This document shows positions 18,604 to 59,908 of a DNA stretch of 64,000 nt, piece by piece. This stretch comes from Limnoperna fortunei. Taxonomy: Eukaryota; Mollusca; Bivalvia; Mytilida; Modiolidae. A model generated the notes under the pieces. It worked only from the letters and a program-made list of their open reading frames with translations, had not been told where the DNA came from and did not search any database. How positions within the stretch are numbered: position 1 is the first letter of the stretch; each line of letters begins with the position of its first letter. Where the stretch lies: assembly GCA_944474755.1 (NCBI GenBank), contig OX104117.1:70904926-70968925 (forward strand), in the 5' to 3' direction. The position numbers and the translations under genes are program-made.

Positions 18604-18685
18604 AATAAAAGCTGACACAAGATGTCTTTTAAAATGTCTACTGGTTTCATCCATATCTTTCTCCAAGCTCTTCCAATAGTCAGTG
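18604..18685 (-). CDS. Annexin-like exon, second half of repeat 2
   Basis: Reads TDYWKSLEKDMDETSRHFKR, then HLVSAFI, then donor GTAAGTACTG in phase 0. Annexins here read Y-GKSLEKDI-DTSGHFKRLLVSA-Q. The Gly before KSL is Trp, SG is SR and LL is HL, so the copy is diverged. It joins in phase to GVESVID of the repeat-3 exon at 15,649. The acceptor is uncertain: TTTTTTATGAG at 18,686 is the best, but its phase does not fit the upstream donor simply. The exon sits about 150 bp left of the tandem array. Confidence 0.72.
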
Positions 18686-18838: not shown

Positions 18839-21800
18839 TATAATTTCTGTTTCTATAGCTAATACACAGTTTTCTGATAGCAGGCAACAATTTCTTTGTT
18901 TCTATAGCTACTAACAATTACTTTTCTAATAGCAGGCAACAATTTCTTTGTTTCAATAGCTACTAACAATTACTTTTCTAATAGCAGGCAAGAATTTCTG
19001 TGATTTTTGTTTCTATCGTTACTAGCACTTACGTTTCTGATAGCAGGCGACAATTTCTTTGATTTCTGTTCCTATAGCTACTAACACTTACTTTTCTGAT
19101 AGCAGGCGACAATTTCTTTGATTTCTGTTTCTATCGCTACTAACACTTACTTTTCTGATAGCAGGCAACAATTTCTTTGATTTCTATTTCTATAGCTACT
19201 AACACTTACTTTTCTGGTTGCGGGCAACAATTTCTTTGATTTCTCTTTCATTTGCTACTAACACTTACTTTTCTGATAGCAGGCGACAATTTCTTTGATT
19301 TCTGTTCCTATAGCTACTATCACTTACTTTTCTGATAGCGGGCAACAATTTCTTTGATTTCTCTTTCATAGCTACTAACACTTACTTTTTTGATAGCAGG
19401 CAACAATTTCTTTGATTTCTCTTTCATTTGCTACTAACACTTACTTTTCTGGTAGCGGGCAACAATTTCTTTGATTTCTCTTTCATTTGCTACTAACACT
19501 TACTTTTCTGATAGCAGGCGACAATTTCTTTGATTTCTGTTCCTGTAGCTACGAACACTTACTTTTCTGATAGCGGGCAACAATTTCTTTGATTTCTCTT
19601 TCATAGCTACTAACACTTACTTTTCTAATAGCAGGCAACAGTTTCTTTGATTTCTCTTTCATAGCTACTAACACTTACTTTTCTGATAGCAGGCGACAAT
19701 TTCTTTGATTTCTGTTCCTATAGCTACTAACACTTACTTTTCTGATAGCAGGCGACAATTTCTTTGATTTCTGTTCCTATAGCTACTAACACTTACTTTT
19801 CTGGTAGCGGGCAACAATTTCTTTGATTTCTCTTTCATTAGCTGCTAACACTTACTTTTCTGATAGCAGGCAAAAATTTCTTTGATTTCTGTTCCTATAG
19901 CTACTAACACTTACTTTTCTGATAGCGGGCAACAATTTCTTTGATTTCTCTTTCATTGCTACTAACACTTACTTTTCTGATAGCAGGCAACAATTTCTTT
20001 GATTTCTCTTTCATTTGCTACTAACACTTACTTTTCTGGTAGCGGGCAACAATTTCTTTGATTTCTCTTTCATTTGCTACTAACACTTACTTTTCTGATA
20101 GCAGGCGACAATTTCTTTGATTTCTGTTCCTATAGCTACTAACACTTACTTTTCTGATAGCAGGCGACAATTTCTTTGATTTCTGTTTCTATAGCTACTA
20201 ACACTTACTTTTCTGGTAGCAGGCAACAATTTCTTTGATTTCTCTTTCATAGCTACTAACACTTACTTTTCTAATAGCAGGCAACAATTTCTTTGATTTC
20301 TCTTTCATTTGCTACTAACACTTACTTTTCTGATAGCAGGCGACAATTTCTTTGATTTCTGTTCCTATAGCTACTAACACTTACTTTTCTAATAGCAGGC
20401 AACAATTTCTTTGATTTCTCTTTCATAGCTACTAACACTTACTTTTCTGATAGCAGGCGACAATTTCTTTGATTTCTGTTCCTATAGCTACTAACACTTA
20501 CTTTTCTGATAGCGGGCAACAATTTCTTTGATTTCTCTTTCATAGCTACTAACACTTACTTTTCTGATAGCAGGCGACAATTTCTTTGATTTCTGTTCCT
20601 ATAGCTACTAACACTTACTTTTCTGATAGCAGGCGACAATTTCTTTGATTTCTGTTCCTATAGCTACTAACACTTACTTTTCTGATAGGAGGCGACAATT
20701 TCTTTGATTTCTATTTCTATAGCTACTAACACTTACTTTTCTGATAGCGGGCAACAATTTCTTTGATTTCTCTTTCATAGCTACTAACACTTACTTTTCT
20801 AATAGCAGGCAACAATTTCTTTGATTTCTGTTCCTATAGCTACTAACACTTACTTTTCTGATAGCGGGCAACAATTTCTTTGATTTCTCTTTCATTTGCT
20901 ACTAACACTTACTTTTCTGATAGCAGGCGACAATTTCTTTGATTTCTGTTCCTATAGCTACTAACACTTACTTTTCTGATAGCAGGCAACAATTTCTTTG
21001 ATTTCTCTTTCATTTGCTGCTAACACTTACTTGTCTGATAGCAGGCGACAATTTCTTTGATTTCTCTTTCATAGCTACTAACACTTACTTTTCTAATAGC
21101 AGGCAACAATTTCTTTGATTTCTCTTTCATTTGCTACTAACACTTACTTTTCTGATAGCAGGCGACAATTTCTTTGATTTCTCTTTCATAGCTACTAACA
21201 CTTACTTTTCTGATAGCGGGCGACAATTTCTTTGATTTCTCTTTCATAGCTACTAACACTTACTTTTCTAATAGCAGGCAAAAATTTCTTTGATTTCTGT
21301 TCCTATAGCTACTAACACTTACTTTTCTGATAGCGGGCAACAATTTCTTTAATTTCTCTTTCATAGCTACTAACACTTACTTTTCTAATAGCAGGCAACA
21401 ATTTCTTTGATTTCTCTTTCATTTGCTACTAACACTTACTTTTCTGATAGCGGGCAACAATTTCTTTGATTTCTGTTCCTATAGCTACTAACACTTACTT
21501 TTCTGATAGCAGGCGACAATTTCTTTGATTTCTGTTTCTATCGCTACTAACACTTACTTTTCTGATAGCAGGCGACAATTTCTTTGATTTCTCTTTCATA
21601 GCTACTAACACTTACTTTTCTGATAGCAGGCGACAATTTCTTTGATTTCTGTTCCTATAGCTACTAACACTTACTTTTCTGATAGCAGGCGACAATTTCT
21701 TTGATTTCTCTTTCATTTGCTACTAACACTTACTTTTTTGATAGCAGGCGACAATTTCTTTGATTTCTGTTCCTATAGCTACTAACACTTACTTTTCTGA

Positions 21801-24800
21801 TAGCGGGCAACAATTTCTTTGATTTCCCTTTCATAGCTACTAACACTTACTTTTCTAATAGCAGGCAACAATTTCTTTGATTTCTGTTCCTATAGCTACT
21901 AACACTTACTTTTCTGATAGCAGGCGACAATTTCTTTGATTTCTGTTCCTATAGCTACTAACACTTACTTTTCTGATAGCGGGCAACAATTTCTTTGATT
22001 TCTCTTTCATTTGCTACTAACACTTACTTTTCTGATAGCGGGCAACAATTTCTTTGATTTCTCTTTCATAGCTACTAACACTTACTTTTCTGATAGCAGG
22101 CGACAATTTCTTTGATTTCTGTTTCTATAGCTACTAACACTTACTTTTCTGGTAGCAGGCAACAATTTCTTTGATTTCTCTTTCATAGCTACTAACACTT
22201 ACTTTTCTAATAGCAGGCAACAATTTCTTTGATTTCTCTTTCATTTGCTACTAACACTTACTTTTCTGATAGCAGGCGACAATTTCTTTGATTTCTGTTC
22301 CTATAGCTACTAACACTTACTTTTCTAATAGCAGGCAACAATTTCTTTGATTTCTCTTTCATAGCTACTAACACTTACTTTTCTGATAGCAGGCGACAAT
22401 TTCTTTGATTTCTGTTCCTATAGCTACTAACACTTACTTTTCTGATAGCAGGCGACAATTTCTTTGATTTCTGTTCCTATAGCTACTAACACTTACTTTT
22501 CTGATAGCGGGCAACAATTTCTTTGATTTCTCTTTCATAGCTACTAACACTTACTTTTCTGATAGCAGGCGACAATTTCTTTGATTTCTGTTCCTATAGC
22601 TACTAACACTTACTTTTCTGATAGCAGGCGACAATTTCTTTGATTTCTGTTCCTATAGCTACTAACACTTACTTTTCTGATAGCAGGCGACAATTTCTTT
22701 GATTTCTATTTCTATAGCTACTAACACTTACTTTTCTGATAGCGGGCAACAATTTTTTTGATTTCTCTTTCATAGCTACTAACACTTACTTTTCTAATAG
22801 CAGGCAACAATTTCTTTGATTTCTGTTCCTATAGCTACTAACACTTACTTTTCTGATAGCGGGCAACAATTTCTTTGATTTCTCTTTCATTTGCTACTAA
22901 CACTTACTTTTCTGATAGCAGGCGACAATTTCTTTGATTTCTGTTCCTATAGCTACTAACACTTACTTTTCTGATAGCAGGCAACAATTTCTTTGATTTC
23001 TCTTTCATTTGCTGCTAACACTTACTTTTCTGATAGCAGGCGACAATTTCTTTGATTTCTCTTTCATAGCTACTAACACTTACTTTTCTAATAGCAGGCA
23101 ACAATTTCTTTGATTTCTCTTTCATTTGCTACTAACACTTACTTTTCTGATAGCAGGCGACAATTTCTTTGATTTCTCTTTCATAGCTACTAACACTTAC
23201 TTTTCTGATAGCGGGCGACAATTTCTTTGATTTCTCTTTCATAGCTACTAACACTTACTTTTCTAATAGCAGGCAACAATTTCTTTGATTTCTGTTCCTA
23301 TAGCTACTAACACTTACTTTTCTGATAGCGGGCAACAATTTCTTTGATTTCTCTTTCATAGCTACTAACACTTACTTTTCTAATAGCAGGCAACAATTTC
23401 TTTGATTTCTCTTTCATTTGCTACTAACACTTACTTTTCTGATAGCGGGCAACAATTTCTTTGATTTCTGTTCCTATAGCTACTAACACTTACTTTTCTG
23501 ATAGCAGGCGACAATTTCTTTGATTTCTGTTCCTATCGCTACTAACACTTACTTTTCTGATAGCAGGCGACAATTTCTTTGATTTCTCTTTCATAGCTAC
23601 TAACACTTACTTTTCTGATAGCAGGCGACAATTTCTTTGATTTCTGTTCCTATAGCTACTAACACTTACTTTTCTGATAGCAGGCGACAATTTCTTTGAT
23701 TTCTCTTTCATTTGCTACTAACACTTACTTTTTTGATAGCAGGCGACAATTTCTTTGATTTCTGTTCCTATAGCTACTAACACTTACTTTTCTGATAGCG
23801 GGCAACAATTTCTTTGATTTCTCTTTCATAGCTACTAACACTTACTTTTCTAATAGCAGGCAACAATTTCTTTGATTTCTGTTCCTATAGCTACTAACAC
23901 TTACTTTTCTTATAGCAGGCGACAATTTCTTTGATTTCTGTTCCTATAGCTACTAACACTTACTTTTCTGATAGCGGGCAACAATTTCTTTGATTTCTCT
24001 TTCATTTGCTACTAACACTTACTTTTCTGATAGCGGGCAACAATTTCTTTGATTTCTCTTTCATAGCTACTAACACTTACTTTTCTGATAGCAGGCGACA
24101 ATTTCTTTGATTTCTGTTCCTATAGCTACTAACACTTACTTTTCTGATAGCAGGCGACAATTTCTTTGATTTCTGTTCCTATAGCTACTAACACTTACTT
24201 TTCTGATAGCGGGCAACAATTTCTTTGATTTCTCTTTCATTTGCTACTAACACTTACTTTTCTGATACCAGGCGACAATTTCTTTGATTTCTGTTTCTAT
24301 AGCTACTAACACTTACTTTTCTGGTAGCGGGCAACAATTTCTTTGATTTCTCTTTCATTTGCTACTAACACTTACTTTTCTGATAGCAGGCGACAATTTC
24401 TTTGATTTCTGTTTCTATAGCTACTAACACTTACTTTTCTGATAGCAGGCAACAATTTCTTTGATTTCTGTTCCTATAGCTACTAACACTTACTTTTCTG
24501 ATAGCAGGCGACAATTTCTTTGATTTCTGTTCCTATAGCTACTAACACTTACTTTTCTGATAGCAGGCGACAATTTCTTTGATTTCTCTTTCATTTGCTA
24601 CTAACACTTACTTTTCTGATAGCAGGCGACAATTTCTTTGATTTCTGTTTCTATCGCTACTAACACTTACTTTTCTGATAGCAGGCGACAATTTCTTTGA
24701 TTTCTCTTTCATAGCTACTAACACTTACTTTTCTGATAGCAGGCGACAATTTCTTTGATTTCTGTTCCTATAGCTACTAACACTTACTTTTCTGATAGCA

Positions 24801-27800
24801 GGCGACAATTTCTTTGATTTCTCTTTCATTTGCTACTAACACTTACTTTTTTGATAGCAGGCGACAATTTCTTTGATTTCTGTTCCTATAGCTACTAACA
24901 CTTACTTTTCTGATAGCGGGCAACAATTTCTTTGATTTCTCTTTCATAGCTACTAACACTTACTTTTCTAATAGCAGGCAACAATTTCTTTGATTTCTGT
25001 TCCTATAGCTACTAACACTTCCTTTTCTGATAGCAGGCGACAATTTCTTTGATTTCTGTTTCTATAGCTACTAACACTTACTTTTCTGATAGCAGGCAAC
25101 AATTTCTTTGATTTCTGTTCCTATAGCTACTAACACTTACTTTTCTGATAGCAGGCGACAATTTCTTTGATTTCTGTTCCTATAGCTACTAACACTTACT
25201 TTTCTGATAGCAGGCGACAATTTCTTTGATTTCTCTTTCATTTGCTACTAACACTTACTTTTCTGATAGCAGGCGACAATTTCTTTGATTTCTGTTTCTA
25301 TAGCTACTAACACTTACTTTTCTGGTAGCGGGCAACAATTTCTTTGATTTCTCTTTCATTTGCTACTAACACTTACTTTTCTGATAGCAGGCGACAATTT
25401 CTTTGATTTCTGTTTCTATAGCTACTAACACTTACTTTTCTGATAGCAGGCAACAATTTCTTTGATTTCTGTTCCTATAGCTACTAACACTTACTTTTCT
25501 GATAGCAGGCGACAATTTCTTTGATTTCTGTTCCTATAGCTACTAACAGTTACTTTTCTGGTAGCGGGCAACAATTTCTTTGATTTCTCTTTCATAGCTA
25601 CTAACACTTACTTTTCTGATAGCAGGCGACAATTTCTTTGATTTCTGTTCCTATAGCTACTAACACTTACTTTTCTGGTAGCGGGCAACAATTTCTTTGA
25701 TTTCTCTTTCATAGCTACTAACACTTACTTTTCTGATAGCAGGCGACAATTTCTTTGATTTCTGTTCCTATAGCTACTAACACTTACTTTTCTGGTAACG
25801 GGCAACAATTTCTTTGATTTCTCTTTCATAGCTACTAACACTTACTTTTCTAATAGCAGGCAACAATTTCTTTGATTTCTGTTCCTATAGCTACTAACAC
25901 TTACTTTTCTGATAGCAGGCGACAATTTCTTTTATTTCTGTTCCTATAGCTACTAACACTTACTTTTCTGATAGCGGGCAACAATTTCTTTGATTTCTCT
26001 TTCATAGCTACTAACACTTACTTTTCTGATAGCAGGCGACAATTTCTTTGATTTCTGTTCCTATAGCTACTAACACTTACTTTTCTGATAGCAGGCGACA
26101 ATTTCTTTGATTTCTCTTTCATAGCTACTAACACTTACTTTTCTGATAGCGGGCGACAATTTCTTTGATTTCTGTTTCTATAGCTACTAACACTTACTTT
26201 TCTGATAGCAGGCAACAATTTCTTTGATTTCTGTTCCTATAGCTACTAACACTTACTTTTCTGATAGCAGGCGACAATTTCTTTGATTTCTGTTCCTATA
26301 GCTACTAACACTTACTTTTCTGATAGCAGGCGACAATTTCTTTGATTTCTCTTTCATTTGCTACTAACACTTACTTTTCTGATAGCAGGCGACAATTTCT
26401 TTGATTTCTGTTTCTATAGCTACTAACACTTACTTTTCTGGTAGCGGGCAACAATTTCTTTGATTTCTCTTTCATTTGCTACTAACACTTACTTTTCTGA
26501 TAGCAGGCGACAATTTCTTTGATTTCTGTTTCTATAGCTACTAACACTTACTTTTCTGATAGCAGGCAACAATTTCTTTGATTTCTGTTCCTATAGCTAC
26601 TAACACTTACTTTTCTGATAGCAGGCGACAATTTCTTTGATTTCTGTTCCTATAGCTACTAACAGTTACTTTTCTGGTAGCGGGCAACAATTTCTTTGAT
26701 TTCTCTTTCATAGCTACTAACACTTACTTTTCTGATAGCAGGCGACAATTTCTTTGATTTCTGTTCCTATAGCTACTAACACTTACTTTTCTGGTAGCGG
26801 GCAACAATTTCTTTGATTTCTCTTTCATAGCTACTAACACTTACTTTTCTGATAGCAGGCGACAATTTCTTTGATTTCTGTTCCTATAGCTACTAACACT
26901 TACTTTTCTGGTAACGGGCAACAATTTCTTTGATTTCTCTTTCATAGCTACTAACACTTACTTTTCTAATAGCAGGCAACAATTTCTTTGATTTCTGTTC
27001 CTATAGCTACTAACACTTACTTTTCTGATAGCAGGCGACAATTTCTTTTATTTCTGTTCCTATAGCTACTAACACTTACTTTTCTGATAGCGGGCAACAA
27101 TTTCTTTGATTTCTCTTTCATAGCTACTAACACTTACTTTTCTGATAGCAGGCGACAATTTCTTTGATTTCTGTTCCTATAGCTACTAACACTTACTTTT
27201 CTGATAGCAGGCGACAATTTCTTTGATTTCTCTTTCATAGCTACTAACACTTACTTTTCTGATAGCGGGCGACAATTTCTTTGATTTCTCTTTCATAGCT
27301 ACTAACACTTACTTTTCTAATAGCAGGCAACAATTTCTTTGATTTCTGTTCCTATAGCTACTAACACTTACTTTTCTGATAGCGGGCAACAATTTCTTTG
27401 ATTTCTCTTTCATAGCTACTAAAACTTACTTTTTTGATAGCAGGCGACAATTTCTTTGATTTCTGTTCCTATAGCTACTAACACTTACTTTTCTGATAGC
27501 GGGCAACAATTTCTTTGATTTCTCTTTCATAGCTACTAACACTTACTTTTCTAATAGCAGGCAACAATTTCTTTGATTTCTGTTCCTATAGCTACTAACA
27601 CTTACTTTTCTGATAGCAGGCGACAATTTCTTTGATTTCTGTTCCTATAGCTACTAACACTTACTTTTCTGATAGCGGGCAACAATTTCTTTGATTTCTC
27701 TTTCATTTGCTACTAACACTTACTTTTCTGATAGCGGGCAACAATTTCTTTGATTTCTCTTTCATAGCTACTAACACTTACTTTTCTGATAGCAGGCGAC

Positions 27801-30800
27801 AATTTCTTTGATTTCTGTTCCTATAGCTACTAACACTTACTTTTCTGATAGCAGGCGACAATTTCTTTGATTTCTGTTCCTATAGCTACTAACACTTACT
27901 TTTCTGATAGCGGGAAACAATTTCTTTGATTTCTCTTTCATTTGCTACTAACACTTACTTTTCTGATACCAGGCGACAATTTCTTTGATTTCTGTTTCTA
28001 TAGCTACTAACACTTACTTTTCTGGTAGCGGGCAACAATTTCTTTGATTTCTCTTTCATTTGCTACTAACACTTACTTTTCTGATAGCAGGCGACAATTT
28101 CTTTGATTTCTGTTTCTATAGCTACTAACACTTACTTTTCTGATAGCGGGCAACAATTTCTTTGATTTCTGTTCCTATAGCTACTAACACTTACTTTTCT
28201 GATAGCAGGCGACAATTTCTTTGATTTCTGTTCCTATAGCTACTAACACTTACTTTTCTGATAGCAGGCGACAATTTCTTTGATTTCTCTTTCATTTGCT
28301 ACTAACACTTACTTTTCTGATAGCAGGCGACAATTTCTTTGATTTCTGTTTCTATAGCTACTAACACTTACTTTTCTGGTAGCGGGCAACAATTTCTTTG
28401 ATTTCTCTTTCATTTGCTACTAACACTTACTTTTCTGATAGCAGGCGACAATTTCTTTGATTTCTGTTTCTATAGCTACTAACACTTACTTTTCTGATAG
28501 CAGGCAACAATTTCTTTGATTTCTGTTCCTATAGCTACTAACACTTACTTTTCTGATAGCAGGCGACAATTTCTTTGATTTCTGTTCCTATAGCTACTAA
28601 CAGTTACTTTTCTGGTAGCGGGCAACAATTTCTTTGATTTCTCTTTCATAGCTACTAACACTTACTTTTCTGATAGCAGGCGACAATTTCTTTGATTTCT
28701 GTTCCTATAGCTACTAACACTTACTTTTCTGGTAGCTGGCAACAATTTCTTTGATTTCTCTTTCATAGCTACTAACACTTACTTTTCTGATAGCAGGCGA
28801 CAATTTCTTTGATTTCTGTTCCTATAGCTACTAACACTTACTTTTCTGGTAACGGGCAACAATTTCTTTGATTTCTCTTTCATAGCTACTAACACTTACT
28901 TTTCTAATAGCAGGCAACAATTTCTTTGATTTCTGTTCCTATAGCTACTAACACTTACTTTTCTGATAGCAGGCGACAATTTCTTTTATTTCTGTTCCTA
29001 TAGCTACTAACACTTACTTTTCTGATAGCGGGCAACAATTTCTTTGATTTCTCTTTCATAGCTACTAACACTTACTTTTCTGATAGCAGGCGACAATTTC
29101 TTTGATTTCTGTTCCTATAGCTACTAACACTTACTTTTCTGATAGCAGGCGACAATTTCTTTGATTTCTCTTTCATAGCTACTAACACTTACTTTTCTGA
29201 TAGCGGGCGACAATTTCTTTGATTTCTCTTTCATAGCTACTAACACTTACTTTTCTAATAGCAGGCAACAATTTCTTTGATTTCTGTTCCTATAGCTACT
29301 AACACTTACTTTTCTGATAGCGGGCAACAATTTCTTTGATTTCTCTTTCATAGCTACTAAAACTTACTTTTCTAATAGCAGGCAACAATTTCTTTGATTT
29401 CTCTTTCATTTGCTACTAACACTTACTTTTCTGATAGCGGGCAACAATTTCTTTGATTTCTGTTCCTATAGCTACTAACACTTACTTTTCTGATAGCAGG
29501 CGACAATTTCTTTGATTTCTGTTTCTATCGCTACTAACATTTACTTTTCTGATAGCAGGCGACAATTTCTTTGATTTCTCTTTCATAGCTACTAACACTT
29601 ACTTTTCTGATAGCAGGCGACAATTTCTTTGATTTCTGTTCCTATAGCTACTAACACTTACTTTTCTGGTAGCGGGCAACAATTTCTTTGATTTCTCTTT
29701 CATAGCTACTAACACTTACTTTTCTGATAGCAGGCGACAATTTCTTTGATTTCTGTTCCTATAGCTACTAACACTTACTTTTCTGGTAACGGGCAACAAT
29801 TTCTTTGATTTCTCTTTCATAGCTACTAACACTTACTTTTCTGATAGCAGGCGACAATTTCTTTTATTTCTGTTCCTATAGCTACTAACACTTACTTTTC
29901 TGATAGCGGACAACAATTTCTTTGATTTCTCTTTCATAGCTACTAACACTTACTTTTCTGATAGCAGGCGACAATTTCTTTGATTTCTGTTCCTATAGCT
30001 ACTAACACTTACTTTTCTGATAGCAGGCGACAATTTCTTTGATTTCTCTTTCATAGCTACTAACACTTACTTTTCTGATAGCGGGCGACAATTTCTTTGA
30101 TTTCTCTTTCATAGCTACTAACACTTACTTTTCTAATAGCAGGCAACAATTTTGATTTCTGTTCCTATAGCTACTAACACTTACTTTTCTGATAGCGGGC
30201 AACAATTTCTTTGATTTCTCTTTCATAGCTACTAACACTTACTTTTCTAATAGCAGGCAACAATTTCTTTGATTTCTCTTTCATTTGCTACTAACACTTA
30301 CTTTTCTGATAGCGGGCAACAATTTTTCTTTGATTTCTGTTCCTATAGCTACTAACACTTACTTTTCTGATAGCAGGCGACAATTTCTTTGATTTCTGTT
30401 TCTATCGCTACTAACATTTACTTTTCTGATAGCAGGCGACAATTTCTTTGATTTCTCTTTCATAGCTACTAACACTTACTTTTCTGATAGCAGGCGACAA
30501 TTTCTTTGATTTCTGTTCCTATAGCTACTAACACTTACTTTTCTGATAGCAGGCGACAATTTCTTTGATTTCTCTTTCATTTGCTACTAACACTTACTTT
30601 TCTGATAGCAGGCGACAATTTCTTTTATTTCTGTTCCTATAGCTACTAACACTTACTTTTCTGATAGCGGGCAACAATTTCTTTGATTTCTCTTTCATAG
30701 CTACTAACACTTACTTTTCTGATAGCAGGCGACAATTTCTTTGATTTCTCTTCCTATAGCTACTAACACTTACTTTTCTGATAGCAGGCGACAATTTCTT

Positions 30801-33800
30801 TGATTTCTCTTTCATAGCTACTAACACTTACTTTTCTGATAGCGGGCGACAATTTCTTTGATTTCTCTTTCATAGCAACTAACACTTACTTTTCTAATAG
30901 CAGGCAACAATTTCTTTGATTTCTGTTCCTATAGCTACTAACACTTACTTTTCTGATAGCGGGCAACAATTTCTTTGATTTCTCTTTCATAGCTACTAAC
31001 ACTTACTTTTCTAATAGCAGGCAACAATTTCTTTGATTTCTCTTTCATTTGCTACTAACACTTACTTTTCTGATAGCGGGCTACAATTTCTTTGATTTCT
31101 GTTCCTATAGCTACTAACACTTACTTTTCTGATAGCAGGCGACAATTTCTTTGATTTCTGTTCCTATAGCTACTAACACTTACTTTTCTGATAGCAGGCG
31201 ACAATTTCTTTGATTTCTGTTCCTATAGCTACTAACACTTACTTTTCTGATAGCAGGCGACAATTTCTTTGATTTCTATTTCTATAGCTACTAACACTTA
31301 CTTTTCTGATAGCGGGCAACAATTTCTTTGATTTCTCTTTCATAGCTACTAACACTTACTTTTCTAATAGCAGGCAACAATTTCTTTGATTTCTGTTCCT
31401 ATAGCTACTAACACTTACTTTTCTGATAGCGGGCAACAATTTCTTTGATTTCTCTTTCATTTGCTACAAACACTTACTTTTCTGATAGCAGGCGCCAATT
31501 TCTTTGATTTCTGTTCCTATAGCTACTAACACTTACTTTTCTGATAGCAGGCAACAATTTCTTTGATTTCTCTTTCATTTGCTGCTAACACTTACTTGTC
31601 TGATAGCAGGCGACAATTTCTTTGATTTTTCTTTCATAGCTACTAACACTTACTTTTCTAATAGCAGGCAACAATTTCTTTGATTTCTCTTTCATTTGCT
31701 ACTAACACTTACTTTTCTAATAGCAGGCAACAATTTCTTTGATTTCTGTTCCTATAGCTACTAACACTTACTTTTCTGATAGCGGGCAACAATTTCTTTG
31801 ATTTCTCTTTCATAGCTACTAACACTTACTTTTCTAATAGCAGGCAACAATTTCTTTGATTTCTCTTTCATTTGCTACTAACACTTACTTTTCTGATAGC
31901 GGGCAACAATTTCTTTGATTTCTGTTCCTATAGCTACTAACACTTACTTTTCTGATAGCAGGCGACAATTTCTTTGATTTCTGTTTCTATCGCTACTAAC
32001 ACTTACTTTTCTGATAGCAGGCGACAATTTCTTTGATTTCTCTTTCATAGCTACTAACACTTACTTTTCTGATAGCAGGCGACAATTTCTTTGATTTCTG
32101 TTCCTATAGCTACTAACACTTACTTTTCTGATAGCAGGCGACAATTTCTTTGATTTCTCTTTCATTTGCTACTAACACTTACTTTTCTGATAGCAGGCGA
32201 CAATTTCTTTGATTTCTGTTCCTATAGCTACTAACACTTACTTTTCTGATAGCGGGCAACAATTTCTTTGATTTCTCTTTCATAGCTACTAACACTTACT
32301 TTTCTAATAGCAGGCAACAATTTCTTTGATTTCTGTTCCTATAGCTACTAACACTTACTTTTCTGATAGCAGGCGACAATTTCTTTGATTTCTGTTCCTA
32401 TAGCTACTAACACTTACTTTTCTGATAGCGGGCAACAATTTCTTTGATTTCTCTTTCATTTGCTACTAACACTTACTTTTCTGATAGCGGGCAACAATTT
32501 CTTTGATTTCTCTTTCATAGCTACTAACACTTACTTTTCTGATAGCAGGCGACAATTTCTTTGATTTCTGTTTCTATAGCTACTAACACTTACTTTTCTG
32601 GTAGCAGGCAACAATTTCTTTGATTTCTCTTTCATAGCTACTAACACTTACTTTTCTAATAGCAGGCAACAATTTCTTTGATTTCTCTTTCATTTGCTAC
32701 TAACACTTACTTTTCTGATAGCAGGCGACAATTTCTTTGATTTCTGTTCCTATAGCTACTAACACTTACTTTTCTAATAGCAGGCAACAATTTCTTTGAT
32801 TTCTCTTTCATAGCTCCTAACACTTACTTTTCTGATAGCAGGCGACAATTTCTTTGATTTCTGTTCCTATAGCTACTAACACTTACTTTTCTGATAGCGG
32901 GCAACAATTTCTTTGATTTCTCTTTCATAGCTACTAACACTTACTTTTCTGATAGCAGGCGACAATTTCTTTGATTTCTGTTCCTATAGCTACTAACACT
33001 TACTTTTCTGATAGCAGGCGACAATTTTATTGATTTCTGTTCCTATAGCTACTAACACTTACTTTTCTGATAGCAGGCGACAATTTCTTTGATTTCTATT
33101 TCTATAGCTACTAACACTTACTTTTCTGATAGCGGGCAACAATTTCTTTGATTTCTCTTTCATAGCTACTAACACTTACTTTTCTAATAGCAGGCAACAA
33201 TTTCTTTGATTTCTGTTCCTATAGCTACTAACACTTACTTTTCTGATAGCGGGCAACAATTTCTTTGATTTCTCTTTCATTTGCTACTAACACTTACTTT
33301 TCTGATAGCAGGCGACAATTTCTTTGATTTCTGTTCCTATAGCTACTAACACTTACTTTTCTGATAGCGGGCAACAATTTCTTTGATTTCTCTTTCATTT
33401 GCTGCTAACACTTACTTGTCTGATAGCAGGCGACAATTTCTTTGATTTCTCTTTCATAGCTACTAACACTTACTTTTCTAATAGCAGGCAACAATTTCTT
33501 TGATTTCTCTTTCATTTGCTACTAACACTTACTTTTCTGATAGCAGGCGACAATTTCTTTGATTTCTCTTTCATAGCTACTAACACTTACTTTTCTGATA
33601 GCGGGCGACAATTTCTTTGATTTCTCTTTCATAGCTACTAACACTTACTTTTCTAATAGCAGGCAACAATTTCTTTGATTTCTGTTCCTATAGCTACTAA
33701 CACTTACTTTTCTGATAGCGGGCAACAATTTCTTTGATTTCTCTTTCATAGCTACTAACACTTACTTTTCTAATAGCAGGCAACAATTTCTTTGATTTCT

Positions 33801-36800
33801 CTTTCATTTGCTACTAACACTTACTTTTCTGATAGCGGGCAACAATTTCTTTGATTTCTGTTCCTATAGCTACTAACACTTACTTTTCTGATAGCAGGCG
33901 ACAATTTCTTTGATTTCTGTTTCTATCGCTACTAACACTTACTTTTCTGATAGCAGGCGACAATTTCTTTGATTTCTCTTTCATAGCTACTAACACTTAC
34001 TTTTCTGATAGCAGGCGACAATTTCTTTGATTTCTGTTTCTATAGCTACTAACACTTACTTTTCTGATAGCAGGCGACAATTTCTTTGATTTCTCTTTCA
34101 TTTGCTACTAACACTTACTTTTTTGATAGCAGGCGACAATTTCTTTGATTTCTGTTCCTATAGCTACTAACACTTACTTTTCTGATAGCGGGCAACAATT
34201 TCTTTGATTTCTCTTTCATAGCTACTAACACTTACTTTTCTAATAGCAGGCAACAATTTCTTTGATTTCTGTTCCTATAGCTACTAACACTTACTTTTCT
34301 GATAGCAGGCGACAATTTCTTTGATTTCTGTTCCTATAGCTACTAACACTTACTTTTTTTCTGATAGCGGGCAACAATTTCTTTGATTTCTCTTTCATTT
34401 GCTACTAACACTTACTTTTCTGATAGCGGGCAACAATTTCTTTGATTTCTCTTTCATAGCTACTAACACTTACTTTTCTGATAGCAGGCGACAATTTCTT
34501 TGATTTCTGTTCCTATAGCTACTAACACTTACTTTTCTGATAGCAGGCGACAATTTCTTTGATTTCTGTTCCTATAGCTACTAACACTTACTTTTCTGAT
34601 AGCGGGCAACAATTTCTTTGATTTCTCTTTCATTTGCTACTAACACTTACTTTTCTGATACCAGGCGACAATTTCTTTGATTTCTGTTTCTATAGCTACT
34701 AACACTTACTTTTCTGGTAGCGGGCAACAATTTCTTTGATTTCTCTTTCATTTGCTACTAACACTTACTTTTCTGATAGCAGGCGACAATTTCTTTGATT
34801 TCTGTTTCTATAGCTACTAACACTTACTTTTCTGATAGCAGGCTACAATTTCTTTGATTTCTGTTCCTATAGCTACTAACACTTACTTTTCTGATAGCAG
34901 GCGACAATTTCTTTGATTTCTGTTCCTATAGCTACTAACACTTACTTTTCTGATAGCAGGCGACAATTTCTTTGATTTCTCTTTCATTTGCTACTAACAC
35001 TTACTTTTCTGATAGCAGGCGACAATTTCTTTGATTTCTGTTTCTATAGCTACTAACACTTACTTTTCTGGTAGCGGGCAACAATTTCTTTGATTTCTCT
35101 TTCATTTGCTACTAACACTTACTTTTCTGATAGCAGGCGACAATTTCTTTGATTTCTGTTTCTATAGCTACTAACACTTACTTTTCTGATAGCGGGCAAC
35201 AATTTCTTTGATTTCTGTTCCTATAGCTACTAACACTTACTTTTCTGATAGCAGGCGACAATTTCTTTGATTTCTGTTCCTATAGCTACTAACAGTTACT
35301 TTTCTGGTAGCGGGCAACAATTTCTTTGATTTCTCTTTCATAGCTACTAACACTTACTTTTCTGATAGCAGGCGACAATTTCTTTGATTTCTGTTCCTAT
35401 AGCTACTAACACTTACTTTTCTGGTAGCGGGCAACAATTTCTTTGATTTCTCTTTCATAGCTACTAACACTTACTTTTCTGATAGCAGGCGACAATTTCT
35501 TTGATTTCTGTTCCTATAGCTACTAACACTTACTTTTCTGGTAACGGGCAACAATTTCTTTGATTTCTCTTTCATAGCTACTAACACTTACTTTTCTAAT
35601 AGCAGGCAACAATTTCTTTGATTTCTGTTCCTATAGCTACTAACACTTACTTTTCTGATAGCAGGCGACAATTTCTTTTATTTCTGTTCCTATAGCTACT
35701 AACACTTACTTTTCTGATAGCGGGCAACAATTTCTTTGATTTCTCTTTCATAGCTACTAACACTTACTTTTCTGATAGCAGGCGACAATTTCTTTGATTT
35801 CTGTTCCTATAGCTACTAACACTTACTTTTCTGATAGCAGGCGACAATTTCTTTGATTTCTCTTTCATAGCTACTAACACTTACTTTTCTGATAGCGGGC
35901 GACAATTTCTTTGATTTCTCTTTCATAGCTACTAACACTTACTTTTCTAATAGCAGGCAACAATTTCTTTGATTTCTGTTCCTATAGCTACTAACACTTA
36001 CTTTTCTGATAGCGGGCAACAATTTCTTTGATTTCTCTTTCATAGCTACTAACACTTACTTTTCTAATAGCAGGCAACAATTTCTTTGATTTCTCTTTCA
36101 TTTGCTACTAACACTTACTTTTCTGATAGCGGGCAACAATTTCTTTGATTTCTGTTCCTATAGCTACTAACACTTACTTTTCTGATAGCAGGCGACAATT
36201 TCTTTGATTTCTGTTTCTATCGCTACTAACATTTACTTTTCTGATAGCAGGCGACAATTTCTTTGATTTCTCTTTCATAGCTACTAACACTTACTTTTCT
36301 GATAGCAGGCGATAATTTCTTTGATTTCTGTTCCTATAGCTACTAACACTTACTTTTCTGGTAGCGGGCAACAATTTCTTTGATTTCTCTTTCATAGCTA
36401 CTAACACTTACTTTTCTGATAGCAGGCGACAATTTCTTTGATTTCTGTTCCTATAGCTACTAACACTTACTTTTCTGGTAACGGGCAACAATTTCTTTGA
36501 TTTCTCTTTCATAGCTACTAACACTTACTTTTCTAATAGCAGGCAACAATTTCTTTGATTTCTGTTCCTATAGCTACTAACACTTACTTTTCTGATAGCA
36601 GGCGACAATTTCTTTTATTTCTGTTCCTATAGCTACTAACACTTACTTTTCTGATAGCAGGCGACAATTTCTTTGATTTCTCTTTCATAGCTACTAACAC
36701 TTACTTTTCTGATAGCGGGCGACAATTTCTTTGATTTCTCTTTCATAGCTACTAACACTTACTTTTCTAATAGCAGGCAACAATTTCTTTGATTTCTGTT

Positions 36801-39800
36801 CCTATAGCTACTAACACTTACTTTTCTGATAGCGGGCGACAATTTCTTTGATTTCTCTTTCATAGCTACTAACACTTACTTTTCTAATAGCAGGCAACAA
36901 TTTCTTTGATTTCTCTTTCATTTGCTACTAACACTTACTTTTCTGATAGCGGGCAACAATTTCTTTGATTTCTGTTCCTATAGCTACTAACACTTACTTT
37001 TCTGATAGCAGGCGACAATTTCTTTGATTTCTGTTTCTATCGCTACTAACATTTACTTTTCTGATAGCAGGCGACAATTTCTTTGATTTCTCTTTCATAG
37101 CTACTAACACTTACTTTTCTGATAGCAGGCGACAATTTCTTTGATTTCTGTTCCTATAGCTACTAACACTTACTTTTCTGATAGCAGGCGACAATTTCTT
37201 TGATTTCTCTTTCATTTGCTACTAACACTTACTTTTCTGATAGCAGGCGACAATTTCTTTTATTTCTGTTCCTATAGCTACTAACACTTACTTTTCTGAT
37301 AGCGGGCAACAATTTCTTTGATTTCTCTTTCATAGCTACTAACACTTACTTTTCTGATAGCAGGCGACAATTTCTTTGATTTCTGTTCCTATAGCTACTA
37401 ACTCTTACTTTTCTGATAGCAGGCGACAATTTCTTTGATTTCTCTTTCATAGCTACTAACACTTACTTTTCTGATAGCGGGCGACAATTTCTTTGATTTC
37501 TCTTTCATAGCTACTAACACTTACTTTTCTAATAGCAGGCAACAATTTCTTTGATTTCTGTTCCTATAGCTACTAACACTTACTTTTCTGATAGCGGGCA
37601 ACAATTTCTTTGATTTCTCTTTCATAGCTACTAACACTTACTTTTCTAATAGCAGGCAACAATTTCTTTGATTTCTCTTTCATTTGCTACTAACACTTAC
37701 TTTTCTAATAGCAGGCAACAATTTCTTTGATTTCTCTTTCATTTGCTACTAACACTTACTTTTCTGATAGCGGGCAACAATTTCTTTGATTTCTGTTCCT
37801 ATAGCTACTAACACTTACTTTTCTGATAGCAGGCGACAATTTCTTTGATTTCTGTTTCTATCGCTACTAACATTTACTTTTCTGATAGCAGGCGACAATT
37901 TCTTTGATTTCTCTTTCATAGCTACTAACACTTACTTTTCTGATAACAGGCGACAATTTCTTTGATTTCTGTTCCTATAGCTACTAACACNNNNNNNNNN
38001 NNNNNNNNNNNNNNNNNNNNNNNNNNNNNNNNNNNNNNNNNNNNNNNNNNNNNNNNNNNNNNNNNNNNNNNNNNNNNNNNNNNNNNNNNNNNNNNNNNNN
38101 NNNNNNNNNNNNNNNNNNNNNNNNNNNNNNNNNNNNNNNNNNNNNNNNNNNNNNNNNNNNNNNNNNNNNNNNNNNNNNNNNNNNNNNNNNTTTTCTGATA
38201 GCGGGCAACAATTTCTTTGATTTCTCTTTTTTCTGATAGCGGGCAACAATTTCTTTGATTTCTCTTTCATAGCTACTAACACTTACTTTTCTGATAGCAG
38301 GCGACAATTTCTTTGATTTCTGTTCCTATAGCTACTAACACTTACTTTTCTGATAGCAGGCGACAATTTCTTTGATTTCTCTTTAATAGCTACTAACACT
38401 TACTTTTCTGATAGCGGGCGACAATTTCTTTGATTTCTCTTTCATAGCTACTAACACTTACTTTTCTAATAGCAGGCAACAATTTCTTTGATTTCTGTTC
38501 CTATAGCTACTAACACTTACTTTTCTGATAGCGGGCAACAATTTCTTTGATTTCTCTTTCATAGCTACTAACACTTACTTTTCTAATAGCAGGCAACAAT
38601 TTCTTTGATTTCTCTTTCATTTGCTACTAACACTTACTTTTCTGATAGCGGGCTACAATTTCTTTGATTTCTGTTCCTATAGCTACTAACACTTACTTTT
38701 CTGATAGCGGGCAACAATTTCTTTGATTTCTCTTTCATAGCTACTAACACTTACTTTTCTAATAGCAGGCAACAATTTCTTTGATTTCTCTTTCATTTGC
38801 TACTAACACTTACTTTTCTGATAGCGGGCAACAATTTCTTTGATTTCTGTTCCTATAGCTACTAACACTTACTTTTCTGATAGCAGGCGACAATTTCTTT
38901 GATTTCTGTTTCTATCGCTACTAACATTTACTTTTCTGATAGCAGGCGACAATTTCTTTGATTTCTCTTTCATAGCTACTAACACTTACTTTTCTGATAG
39001 CAGGCGACAATTTCTTTGATTTCTGTTCCTATAGCTACTAACACTTACTTTTCTGATAGCAGGCGACAATTTCTTTGATTTCTCTTTCATTTGCTACTAA
39101 CACTTACTTTTCTGATAGCAGGCGACAATTTCTTTTATTTCTGTTCCTATAGCTACTAACACTTACTTTTCTGATAGCGGGCAACAATTTCTTTGATTTC
39201 TCTTTCATAGCTACTAACACTTACTTTTCTGATAGCAGGCGACAATTTCTTTGATTTCTGTTCCTATAGCTACTAACACTTACTTTTCTGATAGCAGGCG
39301 ACAATTTCTTTGATTTCTCTTTCATAGCTACTAACACTTACTTTTCTGATAGCGGGCGACAATTTCTGATTTCTCTTTCATAGCTACTAACACTTACTTT
39401 TCTAATAGCAGGCAACAATTTCTTTGATTTCTGTTCCTATAGCTACTAACACTTACTTTTCTGATAGCGGGCAACAATTTCTTTGATTCTCTTTCATAGC
39501 TACTAACACTTACTTTTCTAATAGCAGGCAACATTTCTTTGATTTCTCTTTCATTTGCTACTAACACTTACTTTTCTGATAGCGGGCTACAATTTCTTTG
39601 ATTTCTGTTCCTATAGCTACTAACACTTACTTTTCTGATAGCAGGCGACAATTTCTTTGATTTCTGTTTCTATCGCTACTAACATTTACTTTTCTGATAG
39701 CAGGCGACAATTTCTTTGATTTCTCTTTCATAGCTACTAACACTTACTTTTCTGATAACAGGCGACAATTTCTTTGATTTCTGTTCCTATAGCTACTAAC

Positions 39801-42800
39801 ACTTACTTTTCTGATAGCAGGCGACAATTTCTTTGATTTCTCTTTCATTTGCTACTAACACTTACTTTTCTGATAGCAGGCGACAATTTCTTTGATTTCT
39901 GTTCCTATAGCTACTAACACTTACTTTTCTGATAGCGGGCAACAATTTCTTTGATTTCTCTTTCATAGCTACTAACACTTACTTTTCTAATAGCAGGCAA
40001 CAATTTCTTTGATTTCTGTTCCTATAGCTACTAACACTTACTTTTCTGATAGCAGGCGACAATTTCTTTGATTTCTGTTCCTATAGCTACTAACACTTAC
40101 TTTTCTGATAGCGGGCAACAATTTCTTTGATTTCTCTTCATAGCTACTAACACTTACTTTTCTGATAACAGGCGACAATTTCTTTGATTTCTGTTCCTAT
40201 AGCTACTAACACTTACTTTTCTGATAGCAGGCGACAATTTCTTTGATTTCTGTTCCTATAGCTACTAACACTTACTTTTCTGATAGCAGGCGACAATTTC
40301 TTTGATTTCTGTTCCTATAGCTACTAACACTTACTTTTCTGATAGCAGGCGACAATTTCTTTGATTTATGTTCCTATAGCTACTAACACTTACTTTCTGG
40401 TAGCGGGCAACAATTTCTTTGATTTCTCTTTCATTTGCTACTAACACTTACTTTTCTGATAGCAGGCGACAATTCTTTGATTTCTGTTTCTATAGCTACT
40501 AACACTTACTTTTCTGGTAGCGGGCAACAATTTCTTTGATTTCTCTTTCATTTGCTACTAACACTTACTTTTCTGATAGCAGGCGATAATTTCTTTGATT
40601 TCTGTTTCTATAGCTACTAACACTTACTTTTCTGATAGCAGGCAACAATTTCTTTGATTTCTGTTCCTATAGCTACTAACACTTACTTTTCTGATAGCAG
40701 GCGACAATTTCTTTGATTTCTGTTCCTATAGCTACTAACACTTACTTTTCTGATAGCAGGCGACAATTTCTTTGATTTCTCTTTCATAGCTACTAACACT
40801 TACTTTTCTGATAGCGGGCGACAATTTCTTTGATTTCTCTTTCATAGCTACTAACACTTACTTTTCTGATACCAGGCGACTATTTCTTTGATTTCTGTTT
40901 CTATAGCTACTAACACTTACTTTTCTGGTAGCGGGCAACAATTTCTTTGATTTCTCTTTCATTTGCTACTAACACTTACTTTTCTGATAGCAGGCGACAA
41001 TTTCTTTGATTTCTGTTTCTATAGCTACTAACACTTACTTTTCTGATAGCAGGCAACAATTTCTTTGATTTCTGTTCCTTAGCTACTAACACTTACTTTC
41101 CTGATAGCAGGCGACAATTTCTTTGATTTCTGTTCCTATAGCTACTAACAGTTACTTTTCTGGTAGCGGGCAACAATTTCTTTGATTTCTCTTTCATAGC
41201 TACTAACACTTAGTTTTCTGATAGCAGGCGACAATTTCTTTGATTTCTGTTCCTATAGCTACTAACACTTACTTTTCTGGTAGCGGGCAACAATTTCTTT
41301 GATTTCTCTTTCATAGCTACTAACACTTACTTTTCTGATAGCAGGCGACAATTTTTTTGATTTATGTTCCTATAGCTACTAACACTTACTTTTCTGATAG
41401 CGGGCAACAATTTCTTTGATTTCTCTTTCATTTGCTACTAACACTTACTTTTCTGATAGCAGGCGACAATGTCTTTGATTTCTGTTTCTATAGCTACTAA
41501 CACTTACTTTTCTGGTAGCGGGCAACAATTTCTTTGATTTCTCTTTCATTTGCTACTAACACTTACTTTTCTGATATCAGGCGACAATTTCTTTGATTTC
41601 TGTTTCTATAGCTACTAACACTTACTTTTCTGATAGCAGGCAACAATTTCTTTGATTTCTGTTCCTATAGCTACTAACACTTACTTTTCTGATAGCAGGC
41701 GACAATTTCTTTGATTTCTGTTCCTATAGCTACTAACACTTACTTTTCTGATAACAGGCGACAATTTCTTTGATTTCTCTTTCATAGCTACTAACACTTA
41801 CTTTTCTGATAACAGGCGACAATTTCTTTGATTTCTGTTCCTATAGCTACTAACACTTACTTTTCTGGTAGCGGGCAACAATTTCTTTGATTTCTCTTTC
41901 ATAGCTACTAACACTTACTTTTCTGATAGCAGGCGACAATTTCTTTGATTTCTGTTCCTATAGCTACTAACACTTACTTTTCTGGTAGCGGGCAACAATT
42001 TCTTTGATTTCTCTTTCATAGCTACTAACACTTACTTTTCTGATAGCGGGCAACAATTTCTTTGATTTCTGTGCTTATAGCTACTAACACTTACTTTTCT
42101 GATAGCAGGCGACAATTTCTTTGATTTCTCTTTCATTTGCTACTAACACTTACTTTTCTGATAGCAGGCGACAATTTCTTTGATTTATGTTCCTATAGCT
42201 ACTAACACTTACTTTTCTGATAGCGGGCAACAATTTCTTTGATTTCTCTTTCATTTGCTACTAACACTTACTTTTCTGATAGCAGGCGACAATGTCTTTG
42301 ATTTCTGTTTCTATAGCTACTAACACTTACTTTTCTGGTAGCGGGCAACAATTTCTTTGATTTCTCTTTCATTTGCTACTAACACTTACTTTTCTGATAT
42401 CAGGCGACAATTTCTTTGATTTCTGTTTCTATAGCTACTAACACTTACTTTTCTGATAGCAGGCAACAATTTCTTTGATTTCTGTTCCTATAGCTACTAA
42501 CACTTACTTTTCTGATAGCAGGCGACAATTTCTTTGATTTCTGTTCCTATAGCTACTAACACTTACTTTTCTGATAACAGGCGACAATTTCTTTGATTTC
42601 TCTTTCATAGCTACTAACACTTACTTTTCTGATAACAGGCGACAATTTCTTTGATTTCTGTTCCTATAGCTACTAACACTTACTTTTCTGGTAGCGGGCA
42701 ACAATTCTTTGATTCTCTTTCATAGCTACTAACACTTACTTTCTGATAGCAGGCGACAATTTCTTTGATTTCTGTTCCTATAGCTACTAACACTTACTTT

Positions 42801-44605
42801 TCTGGTAGCGGGCAACAATTTCTTTGATTTCTCTTTCATAGCTACTAACACTTACTTTTCTGATAGCGGGCAACAATTTCTTTGATTTTCTGTGCTTATA
42901 GCTACTAACACTTACTTTTCTGATAGCAGGCGACAATTTCTTTGATTTCTCTTTCATAGCTACTAACACTTACTTTTCTGATAGCAGGCGACAATTTCTT
43001 TGATTTCTCTTTCATAGCTACTAACACTTACTTTTCTGATAGCAGGCGACAATTTCTTTGATTTCTGTTCCTATAGCTACTAACACTTACTTTTCTGATA
43101 ACAGGCGACAATTTCTTTGATTTCTCTTTCATAGCTACTAACACTTACTTTTCTGATAACAGGCGACAATTTCTTTGATTTCTGTTCCTATAGCTACTAA
43201 CACTTACTTTTCTGGTAGCGGGCAACAATTTCTTTGATTTCTCTTTCATTAGCTACTAACACTTACTTTTCTGATAGCGGGCAACAATTTCTTTGATTTC
43301 TGTTCCTATAGCTAGTAACACTTACTTTTCTGGTAGCGGGCAACAATTTCTTTGATTTCTCTTTCATAGCTACTAACACTTACTTTTCTGATAACAGGCG
43401 ACAATTTCTTTGATTTCTCTTTCATAGCTACTAACACTTACTTTTCTGATAACAGGCGACAATTTCTTTGATTTCTGTTCCTATAGCTACTAACACTTAC
43501 TTTTCTGGTAGCGGGCAACAATTTCTTTGATTTCTCTTTCATTGCTACTAACACTTACTTTTCTGATAGCGGCCAGCAACAATTTCTTTGATTTCTCTTT
43601 CATTTGCTACTAACACTTACTTTTCTGATAGCGGGCAACAATTTCTTTGATTTCTGTTCCTATAGCTACTAACACTTACTTTTCTGGTAGCGGGCAACAA
43701 TTTCTTTGATTTCTCTTTCATAGCTACTAACACTTACTTTTCTGATAACAGGCGACAATTTCTTTGATTTCTGTTCCTATAGCTACTAACACTTACTTTT
43801 CTGATAGCAGGCGACAATTTCTTTGATTTCTCTTTCATAGCTACTAACACTTACTTTTCTAATAGCGGGCAACAATTTCTTTGATTTCTGTTCCTATAGC
43901 TACTAACACTTACTTTTCTGGTAGCTGGCAACAATTTCTTTGATTTCTCTTTCATAGCAACTAACACTTACTTTTCTAATAGCAGGCAACAATTTCTTTG
44001 ATTTCTCTTTCATTTGCTACTAACACTTACTTTTCTGATAGCAGGCGACAATTTCTTTGATTTCTGTTCCTATAGCTACTAACACTTACTTTTCTGGTAG
44101 CGGGCAACAATTTCTTTGATTTCTCTTTCATAGCTACTAACACTTACTTTTCTGATAGCAGGCGACAATTTCTTTGATTTCTGTTCCTATAGCTACTAAC
44201 ACTTACTTTTCTGGTAGCGGGCAACAATTTCTTTGATTTCTCTTTCATAGCTACTAACACTTACTTTTCTGATAGCAGGCGACAATTTCTTTGATTTCTG
44301 TTCCTATAGCTACTAACACTTACTTTTCTGATAGCAGGCGACAATTTCTTTGATTTCTGTTCCTATAGCTACTAACACTTACTTTTCTGGTAGCGGGCAA
44401 CAATTTCTTTGATTTCTCTTTCATAGCTACTAACACTTACTTTTCTTCTGATAGCAGGCGACAATTTCTTTGATTTCTGTTTCTATAGCTACTAACACTT
44501 ACTTTTCTGATAGCAGGCAACAATTTCTTTGATTTCTATTTCTATAGCTACTAACACTTACTTTTCTGGTAGCGGGCAACAATTTCTTTGATTTCTGCAT
44601 TTGTT
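18839..44605 (-). repeat. Giant 58-59 bp tandem array made from an annexin exon-intron junction
   Basis: About 25.8 kb, roughly 435 copies. On the minus strand each unit carries codons for EIKEIVACYQK or EIKEIVARYQK, then a donor GTAAGTG and GTTAGTAGC. The right edge merges into the annexin-like exon at 44,562-44,639, whose last 44 nt and following 15 intron nt have the same sequence; 44+15 gives the 59-bp unit. Three unit types differ at the join: two are 59 bp (plus-strand TTCCTATAG or TTTCATTTG) and one is 58 bp (TTTCATAG). The TTTCATTTG type keeps most of the exon's ACAAATG. Many units have CTAATAGC, which turns the Gln codon into a stop. Left-edge units near 18,840-19,020 are the most degenerate. 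Larger blocks are duplicated within the array. Confidence 0.92.
37991..38190. other. Assembly gap of 200 N inside the array
   Basis: Exactly 200 Ns. The repeat continues on both sides. Immediately right of the gap, 38,191-38,240 contains a shortened, out-of-register unit (CTCTTTTTTCTGATAGCGGG), as expected at a forced join. True array length is therefore unknown. Confidence 0.97.
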
Positions 44606-44639
44606 CTTGTCAGAAAGATTTCAAGACTCCTTTTAACAC
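44562..44639 (-). CDS. Annexin-like repeat-2 exon, parent of the tandem array
   Basis: After acceptor CTTTTAG, the useful frame reads VKRSLEIFLTRTNAEIKEIV and ARYQK, then A and the donor GTAAGTG. This matches the annexin repeat-2 helices (LIEIL-TRTN-EIKEIV-YQ). The last 44 nt (44,562-44,605) are the exon part of the array unit; 44,606-44,639 are single-copy. The expected start (GAGT-E-x-LIEI) is shortened, and the phase from the exon at 46,080 does not connect cleanly, suggesting a small deletion. Confidence 0.82.
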
Positions 44640-45662: not shown

Positions 45663-46079
45663 TACTATGTAAACATGAGAATAGATCGGCAGCATGTGGA
45701 TCCATATGTTGAATTAATGTGATAAAGAGGCACATCAAATTCTTCATACATTTGACAATGTTTAAGTTTTAATTTTAACAATTCCACCTACTGAAGGAAA
45801 ATATATTATCAAACTTCAGTAAAACACCATTGTATGTTATAGCCTATTACTCTATGCAGAGACCTACTTGCCTTAATTTTTGACTAACTTTACATAAGAT
45901 AATGTAAATTGTATTGATCGTAAACAAACTTTGTGAAAATGGTAATGGACATACGCTTAACACATATAATAAACTAAAAGAACTTTACAGAGAACGAGAT
46001 ACAAAGAGGTAGTTCATCTAGCTGCACATATGTATGAATTACAAACAATACACAGAATTATATGTGGTTGTTGACTCAC

Positions 46080-46169
46080 CATCATCGCTTTATGGAGAGA
46101 ATAATCATCATAGAATGTAGTAGGCTTAAAGATGGCAAGAATCAACTCTTCCAAATCTCCAAAAGCCTG
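46080..46169 (-). CDS. Annexin-like exon, end of repeat 1 to start of repeat 2
   Basis: Reads QAFGDLEELILAIFKPTTFY, then DDYSLHKAMM, then donor GTGAGTC. The annexin pattern is SGDFEELI-A-M-PP-YDAY-L-KAM-G. The first codon is either at 46,169 (after GATAG) or 46,166 (after CAG). It lies on the far side of the tandem array from the other exons, on the same strand and in the right order, which shows that the array is intronic. No exon for the first half of repeat 1 or the N-terminal tail was found further right in the window. Confidence 0.78.
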
Positions 46170-47649: not shown

Positions 47650-48665
47650 CTCAAAAACTCGCGGTAGAACTGTCCATGCCTCATACACTGTACTGGTAGA
47701 CTAGACTTTGGTCCATGCCTCATACACTGTACTGGTAGACTAAACTTTGGTCCATGCCTTATACACTGTACAGGTAGACTAAACTTTGGTCCATGCCTCA
47801 TACACTGTACAGGTAGACTAAACTTTGGTCCATGCCTCATACACTGTACTGGTAGACTAGACTTTGGTCCATGCCTCATACACTGTACTGGTAGACTAGA
47901 CTTTGGTCCATGCCTCATACACTGTACTGGTAGACTAGACTTTGGTCCATGCCTCATACACTGTACTGGTAGACTAAACTTTGGTCCATGCCTCACACAC
48001 TGTACTGGTAGACTAGACTTTGGTCCATTCCGCATACACTGTACTGGTAGACTAGACTTTGGTCCATGCCTCATACACTGTACTGGTAGACTAAATTTGA
48101 TCCATGGCTCCTACGCTGTACTGTTAGACTAGACCTTGGTCCATGTCTCATACACTGTACTGGTAGACTAGACTTTGTTTCATGCCTCATACACTCTATT
48201 GGTAGACTAGACTTTGGTCCATGCCGCATACACTCTACTGGTAGACTAGACCTTGGTCCATGCCTCCTACACAGTACTGGTAGACAAGACCTTGGTCCAT
48301 GCCTCATAAACTGTACTGGTAGACTAGGCTTTGGTCCATGCGCATACACAGTACTGGTAGACTAGACCTTGGTCCATGCCTCATACACAGTACTGGTAGA
48401 CTAGACCTTGGTCCATGCCTCATAAACTGTACTGGTAGACTATACTTTGGTCCATGCGCATTCACTGTACTGGTAGACTAGACCTTGGTCCATGCCTCAT
48501 ACACAGTACTGGTAGACTAGACCATGCCGCATACAATGTACTGGTAGACTAAATTTTGGTCCATGCCTCATACACTGTACTGGTAGACTACACCTTGGTC
48601 CATGCCTCATACACTGTACTGGTAGACTAGACTTTGGTCCATGCCTCATACACTGTTCTGGCATT
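47650..48665 (-). repeat. 39-bp minisatellite, about 26 copies
   Basis: The unit on the plus strand contains CTGTACTGGTAGACTAGACT and TTGGTCCATGC. On the minus strand it reads MRHGPKSSLPVQC, 13 codons per unit, giving open stretches of 144 and 92 residues at 47,640-48,074 and 48,071-48,349. Units vary most at the SS / PS and CMRH / CIRH positions. Indels at about 48,335 and 48,455 break the frame. No start context, signal peptide or flanking exon supports a gene, so I call it a repeat. Confidence 0.85.
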
Positions 48666-59831: not shown

Positions 59832-59908
59832 TCCCACTGAAATAAATAACAAAACAGTAATATTAATAATAATTTAAGACTTCCATAATTCAATTATGAA
59901 ACTTCTTA

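Follow-up and report, generated by a model that had tools for sequence, protein, structure and literature searches.

A 59-bp tandem array spanning an exon–intron boundary in a probable annexin pseudogene of Limnoperna fortunei

A stretch of 64,000 nucleotides from the bivalve Limnoperna fortunei (assembly GCA_944474755.1, contig OX104117.1, positions 70,904,926 to 70,968,925 of the forward strand; here termed the window) contains a long tandem array whose unit carries annexin codons that run up to a splice donor, GTAAGT. This raises the question of how a repeat that is part exon and part intron came to be present in hundreds of copies beside an annexin exon: did it arise in place from the exon–intron junction, or did a repeat of other origin come to lie there? 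The state of the host gene and possible functions of the array are also considered.

The repeat unit and the extent of the array

Tandem Repeats Finder (TRF) detects 437.0 copies of a 59-bp period (score 40233), and overlapping TRF rows place the array ends at 18843 and 44597. Hundreds of tandem copies had been reported in a first-pass annotation, and this is borne out. The far edge, previously given as 18839, is corrected to 18843. The length of 25.8 kb proposed earlier is not established, as an assembly gap of 200 N at 37991–38190 had been overlooked. The array consists of two sequenced pieces of one scaffold, and its length bridges the gap and is not fixed by the assembly. The exon-side piece (38191–44597, minus strand) has 107 parsed units and the far, intron-side piece (18843–37990, minus strand) has 325, the last of which are degenerate. 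The two halves are joined on the basis of the scaffold, the matching array type and the exon order.

Minus-strand parsing of the array gave 434 anchors and hence 433 intervals, mostly of 59 bp (292) or 58 bp (127). Column counts are based on the 429 intervals of 50–64 bp, with four left out. Most unit positions are near-invariant, and a few sites together with the last ten bases vary among a small number of types. The sequence AGTAAGT is present in 411 of the 429 units.

The scaffold gap lies beside a 38-bp truncated unit at 38262-38191, which is perhaps an assembly scar, and it may be asked whether the array is itself an artefact in which a repeat was collapsed, expanded or misjoined. This is very improbable, as there are 98 distinct sequences among the 433 intervals, their order is non-random by a run test, and the annexin exon order is correct on both sides; such an error would moreover alter the length of the array and not its existence.

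The unit comprises the last 36 nt of the annexin exon at 44639-44562 and the first 23 nt of its intron, a division that replaces the 44 and 15 nt assigned to exon and intron in the first-pass annotation. The first, exon-end copy (44539–44597, minus strand) thus has 36 nt of exon (44597-44562) and 23 nt of intron (44561-44539), and the array passes unbroken into the exon, as had been claimed. With one copy of the unit the intron would be ~192 nt in length; the assembled intron is 25,881 nt. No further copy of the 59-bp unit was found within the 64-kb window, where the longest short match is 16 nt with one mismatch. Collections of virus and prokaryote contigs gave 0 matches, which is uninformative for an animal repeat.

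The annexin host gene

The peptide of exon 44639-44562 joined to the next exon matches solved annexin structures, the best being annexin VI (E 9.5e-19). Annexin A7/11 of Mytilus galloprovincialis gives the best protein match (61% across 87% of the query), and Dreissena comes next among named bivalves with 49%. Searches by tblastn with ten relatives (rows considered at E < 1, up to 10 for relatives P0001 and P0002) place the exons in gene order on the minus strand, from 46160-46083 to 13727-13614, and with the Mytilus annexin P0001 the exons matched on either side of the array are in the correct order. Pfam detects the peptide of the repeat-2 exon as annexin only below the cut-off (17.5 vs 25 bits) and does not call the repeat-3 peptide annexin at E 0.1; tblastn with P0001 detects repeat 3 at E 3.5e-23. 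At the level of sequence, homology to annexins is established for the host exons.

All exons are on the minus strand. The first (46077–46160; tblastn match 46160-46083) encodes the end of repeat 1 and the start of repeat 2 (GDLEELILAIFKPTTFYDDYSLHKAM). The repeat-2 exon that adjoins the array is 78 nt long (44562–44639; match 44643-44563), has an upstream acceptor, TTTTAG, and the donor GTAAGT, and shows a two-residue gap relative to its relatives. Beyond the array, the next exon (18604–18680; match 18681-18610) encodes the end of repeat 2, with a one-residue gap relative to relatives. The acceptor expected before it, at 18682-18681, is TG and not AG, and use of the nearest upstream AG (18687-18686) would shift the annexin frame. 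The repeat-3 exon (15484–15706; match 15712-15486) has a one-nucleotide frame break near 15524. The first of the repeat-4 exons (14535–14656; match 14656-14540) is interrupted by an in-frame TAA stop codon (14632-14630) at a site that codes for an amino acid in nine aligned relatives. The exon encoding the end of repeat 4 (13610–13727; match 13727-13614) is open and is 71% identical to the Mytilus annexin. Within the window, tblastn did not detect the first half of repeat 1 or the second half of repeat 3; it should be pointed out that P0001 is itself without repeat 1, and that repeat 1 of the host could also lie outside the window.

Within the window there is no continuous frame across four annexin repeats joined by canonical splice sites, as an intact A7/11-type gene would have. 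Because of the stop codon in repeat 4, the frameshift in repeat 3, the TG in place of an acceptor AG and the missing parts of repeats, the host is best regarded as a pseudogene, although single-base breaks can also stem from errors of assembly. The array had been described as flanked by further annexin exons; annexin-like exons are indeed present on both sides, but they belong to a gene with several lesions rather than to an intact one. Single-copy annexin sequence had been said to continue only on the exon side. This does not hold, as the next annexin exon starts ~160 nt past the far end. On either side the flank of the array reads as annexin exon with a short stretch of intron.

Origin, growth and exchange

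Both ends of the array carry the same 7-mer, CAGAAAT, which is found at 44591–44597 on the exon side and at 18843–18849 on the intron side (both minus strand), the latter being followed by the single-copy sequence TATAATTC. A single-copy version of the locus would have CAGAAAT twice, 59 bp apart. An overlap of at least 7 nt at a random junction of flanking DNA occurs at a rate of 0.0011 in 400,000 draws. Because both array ends fall on CAGAAAT, the edges point to seeding of the array by slippage or microhomology between two CAGAAAT words at the splice-donor boundary. However, the original far breakpoint could be eroded, and chance could account for the shared 7-mer. Copies at the far edge have diverged (identity to the consensus 0.78 and 0.80), so that this edge may have changed; the last bin of 20 units has an identity of 0.908, and bins elsewhere range from 0.938 to 0.959.

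The proposal that the array arose in place from the exon–intron junction was already made in the first-pass annotation. It gains support because the unit has annexin codons up to the donor GTAAGT, because the single-copy annexin flanks are ordered and oriented, and because the two ends share a 7-mer. The alternative is that the unit is a dispersed satellite that came by chance to touch the annexin exon, or was joined to it. Satellite-like arrays abound in bivalve genomes, and mobile elements carry some of them according to the parts of the literature drawn on here (PMC7492417, PMC11136912), and a 27-bp array at 56221-57688 matches the 59-bp consensus at 14 of 15 nt (equalled in 8 of 2000 shuffles; one of four arrays tested). 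Yet annexin codons make up 36 nt of the unit, end at the annexin donor and are continuous with the single-copy exon, and the window holds no second copy; a later spread from the annexin locus would in any case leave the origin there. On the evidence of this window, we regard a dispersed satellite as improbable. The reading that we hold to be quite likely is a boundary minisatellite, similar to the ‘mirages’ of lancelets, that grew to satellite size within one intron of a decayed annexin A7/11-type gene.

In-place growth may be envisaged as follows. One CAGAAAT word would have lain 36 nt ahead of the donor, in the exon, and another 24–30 nt beyond it, in the intron. Mispairing of the two during replication or end joining would then have duplicated the intervening segment, as the array edges suggest. 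Unequal exchange and block duplication would subsequently have raised the number of copies and homogenized them, with duplication of blocks of up to 19 identical consecutive units, and the intron would have expanded from ~192 nt to at least 25.7 kb. In this assembly the host gene is broken; the model sets no order between expansion of the array and death of the gene.

Traces of block duplication are found in the order of the units. Runs of identical consecutive units reach a length of 19 (27288 and 26172), compared with maxima of 3–5 in 20 shuffles and 6–8 in 20 first-order Markov simulations. A nine-unit run is common to both sides of the N gap (39258 and 37383), which is just above the range simulated for the whole array. 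Unit types are also shared across the gap: 74 of the 107 exon-side units are of a type found on the far side, and 245 of the 325 far-side units are of an exon-side type. In addition, the pair of units at the exon end (44595-44478) and a pair close to the far end (19243-19126) are identical at 116 of 118 positions.

Does the exon itself take part in this homogenization? The exon-end copy has the codon CGC (Arg) at a site where 289 of 429 array units carry TGC (Cys) and 138 carry CGC. Among the ten nearest relatives, nine have Cys at this site and one has Ala. Judged from these relatives, Cys is likely to be ancestral, although this is not certain, as the column is mixed over 110 aligned annexins (14 Cys, 4 Arg, 22 Ala and others). 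The four-site haplotype of the exon copy is carried by 44 of 429 units, the exon copy being one of them, and these extend from 19243 to 44595. As variants of the exon-end copy recur in units throughout the array, the simplest reading of the sequences is that the exon edge and the array probably exchange sequence. It is a more tentative idea, and one that we think rather doubtful, that the exon's coding end evolves in concert with its own intronic satellite. Unequal exchange or conversion would then have carried array variants back into the exon, and the repeat would have both rewritten coding sequence and contributed to the death of the gene. An independent T-to-C mutation in the exon, or transfer of the exon variant into the array, would leave the same pattern as writing from array to exon. 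Should exchange between array and exon be true, it would provide a route by which a neutral repeat can change a coding sequence and end a gene.

Possible functions, known systems and neighbouring features

More than 400 consensus donors in one intron might suggest a functional array, perhaps a decoy or sink for U1 snRNP, or a role in regulation of splicing. On the coding strand there are 416 GTAAGT motifs in the array and 8 in the remaining 38,245 nt. However, conservation of the donor does not surpass that of the intron bases which follow (mean 0.993 vs 0.996; the exon part has a median of 0.998), and the +5 G of the donor, at 0.967, ranks with the less conserved near-invariant positions. In addition, the downstream acceptor is TG and the host gene is broken. 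A functional array is therefore highly unlikely. The tail columns of the unit average 0.729. A selected splice donor is unsupported, as the donor columns do not exceed their neighbours in conservation. A coding array was also rejected: a single stretch between stops attains 60 aa on the minus strand, on the plus strand none is that long, and a protein search with the minus-strand stretch gave no candidate. With respect to structured RNA, the window has no Rfam match at the gathering score. Nothing found suggests a function for the array, and none is proposed.

Tandem repeats that span exon–intron boundaries have been termed mirages in lancelets, where the portions of the papers drawn on here describe them in Branchiostoma Adh3, the globins BflGb6 and BflGb9, PGBD5 and troponin C (PMC3087553, PMC3902484). 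In these genes blocks of repeats are homogenized with the array edges left out, and splicing is unharmed (PMC3087553, PMC3902484). The annexin array is minisatellite-like, and as in the mirages its unit spans an exon–intron boundary, carries a splice signal and adjoins the authentic exon of the same gene. Its unit of 59 bp compares with 10–72 bp in lancelet Adh3 and 150–160 bp in the globins. Copies number ~437, in contrast to 3 and 6 in BflGb6, and the lancelet hosts are spliced normally whereas the bivalve annexin host is broken. The annexin array is thus of a known kind, and what is new is the mollusc host and the scale. The earlier view that such an array is unusual must be tempered to this extent.

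No boundary-spanning array was recognized in bivalves in the literature surveyed by title and the start of the abstract; a paper on Lucina haemoglobin describes, in the part consulted, intronic MITE-like repeats, which are unlike a boundary-spanning array (PMC4732748). Intron gain by tandem genomic duplication, as outlined in the parts of two papers drawn on, likewise duplicates a segment with a splice signal (PMC4974935, PMC3443670). That process creates a new intron, whereas the annexin array enlarges an existing one and no new intron is seen. Bivalve satellite DNAs are similarly long, homogenized tandem arrays in the accounts consulted (PMC7492417, PMC5874043, PMC11136912), but the annexin unit differs from them in that it can be traced to an exon and intron of its host gene.

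The locus shows the birth point of an array of satellite scale, in that both ends trace to a named single-copy exon or intron and there is a candidate seeding direct repeat. Satellite origins are seldom so readable. It also adds a mollusc to the lancelets as a host of boundary-spanning minisatellites, and raises their scale from a few copies to hundreds.

Other repeats are present in the window. The sequence TGTCG[C/T]CTGCTATCA of the 27-bp array is the part common to the 59-bp consensus, and it resembles the exon copy less; it gives a weak hint of kinship between the two arrays. A 16-nt version of the shared motif has 32 single matches in viral contigs, which are taken as chance. Further tandem arrays at 47672-48661, 49148-53063 and 53282-53742 have units of 39 and ~50 bp, and tandem repeats, with the main array included, make up roughly half of the window.

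A single-exon gene for a rhodopsin-type G protein-coupled receptor (GPCR; PF00001, E 1e-18) is found at 58785-59873, upstream of the annexin exons and on the same (minus) strand. Its product shows 58–59% identity to Mytilus proteins and 65% to another protein. The minus strand at 61185-62088 has the remains of a transposase in two pieces, with DDE_3 and helix-turn-helix domains, which we take to be of the Tc1/mariner type.
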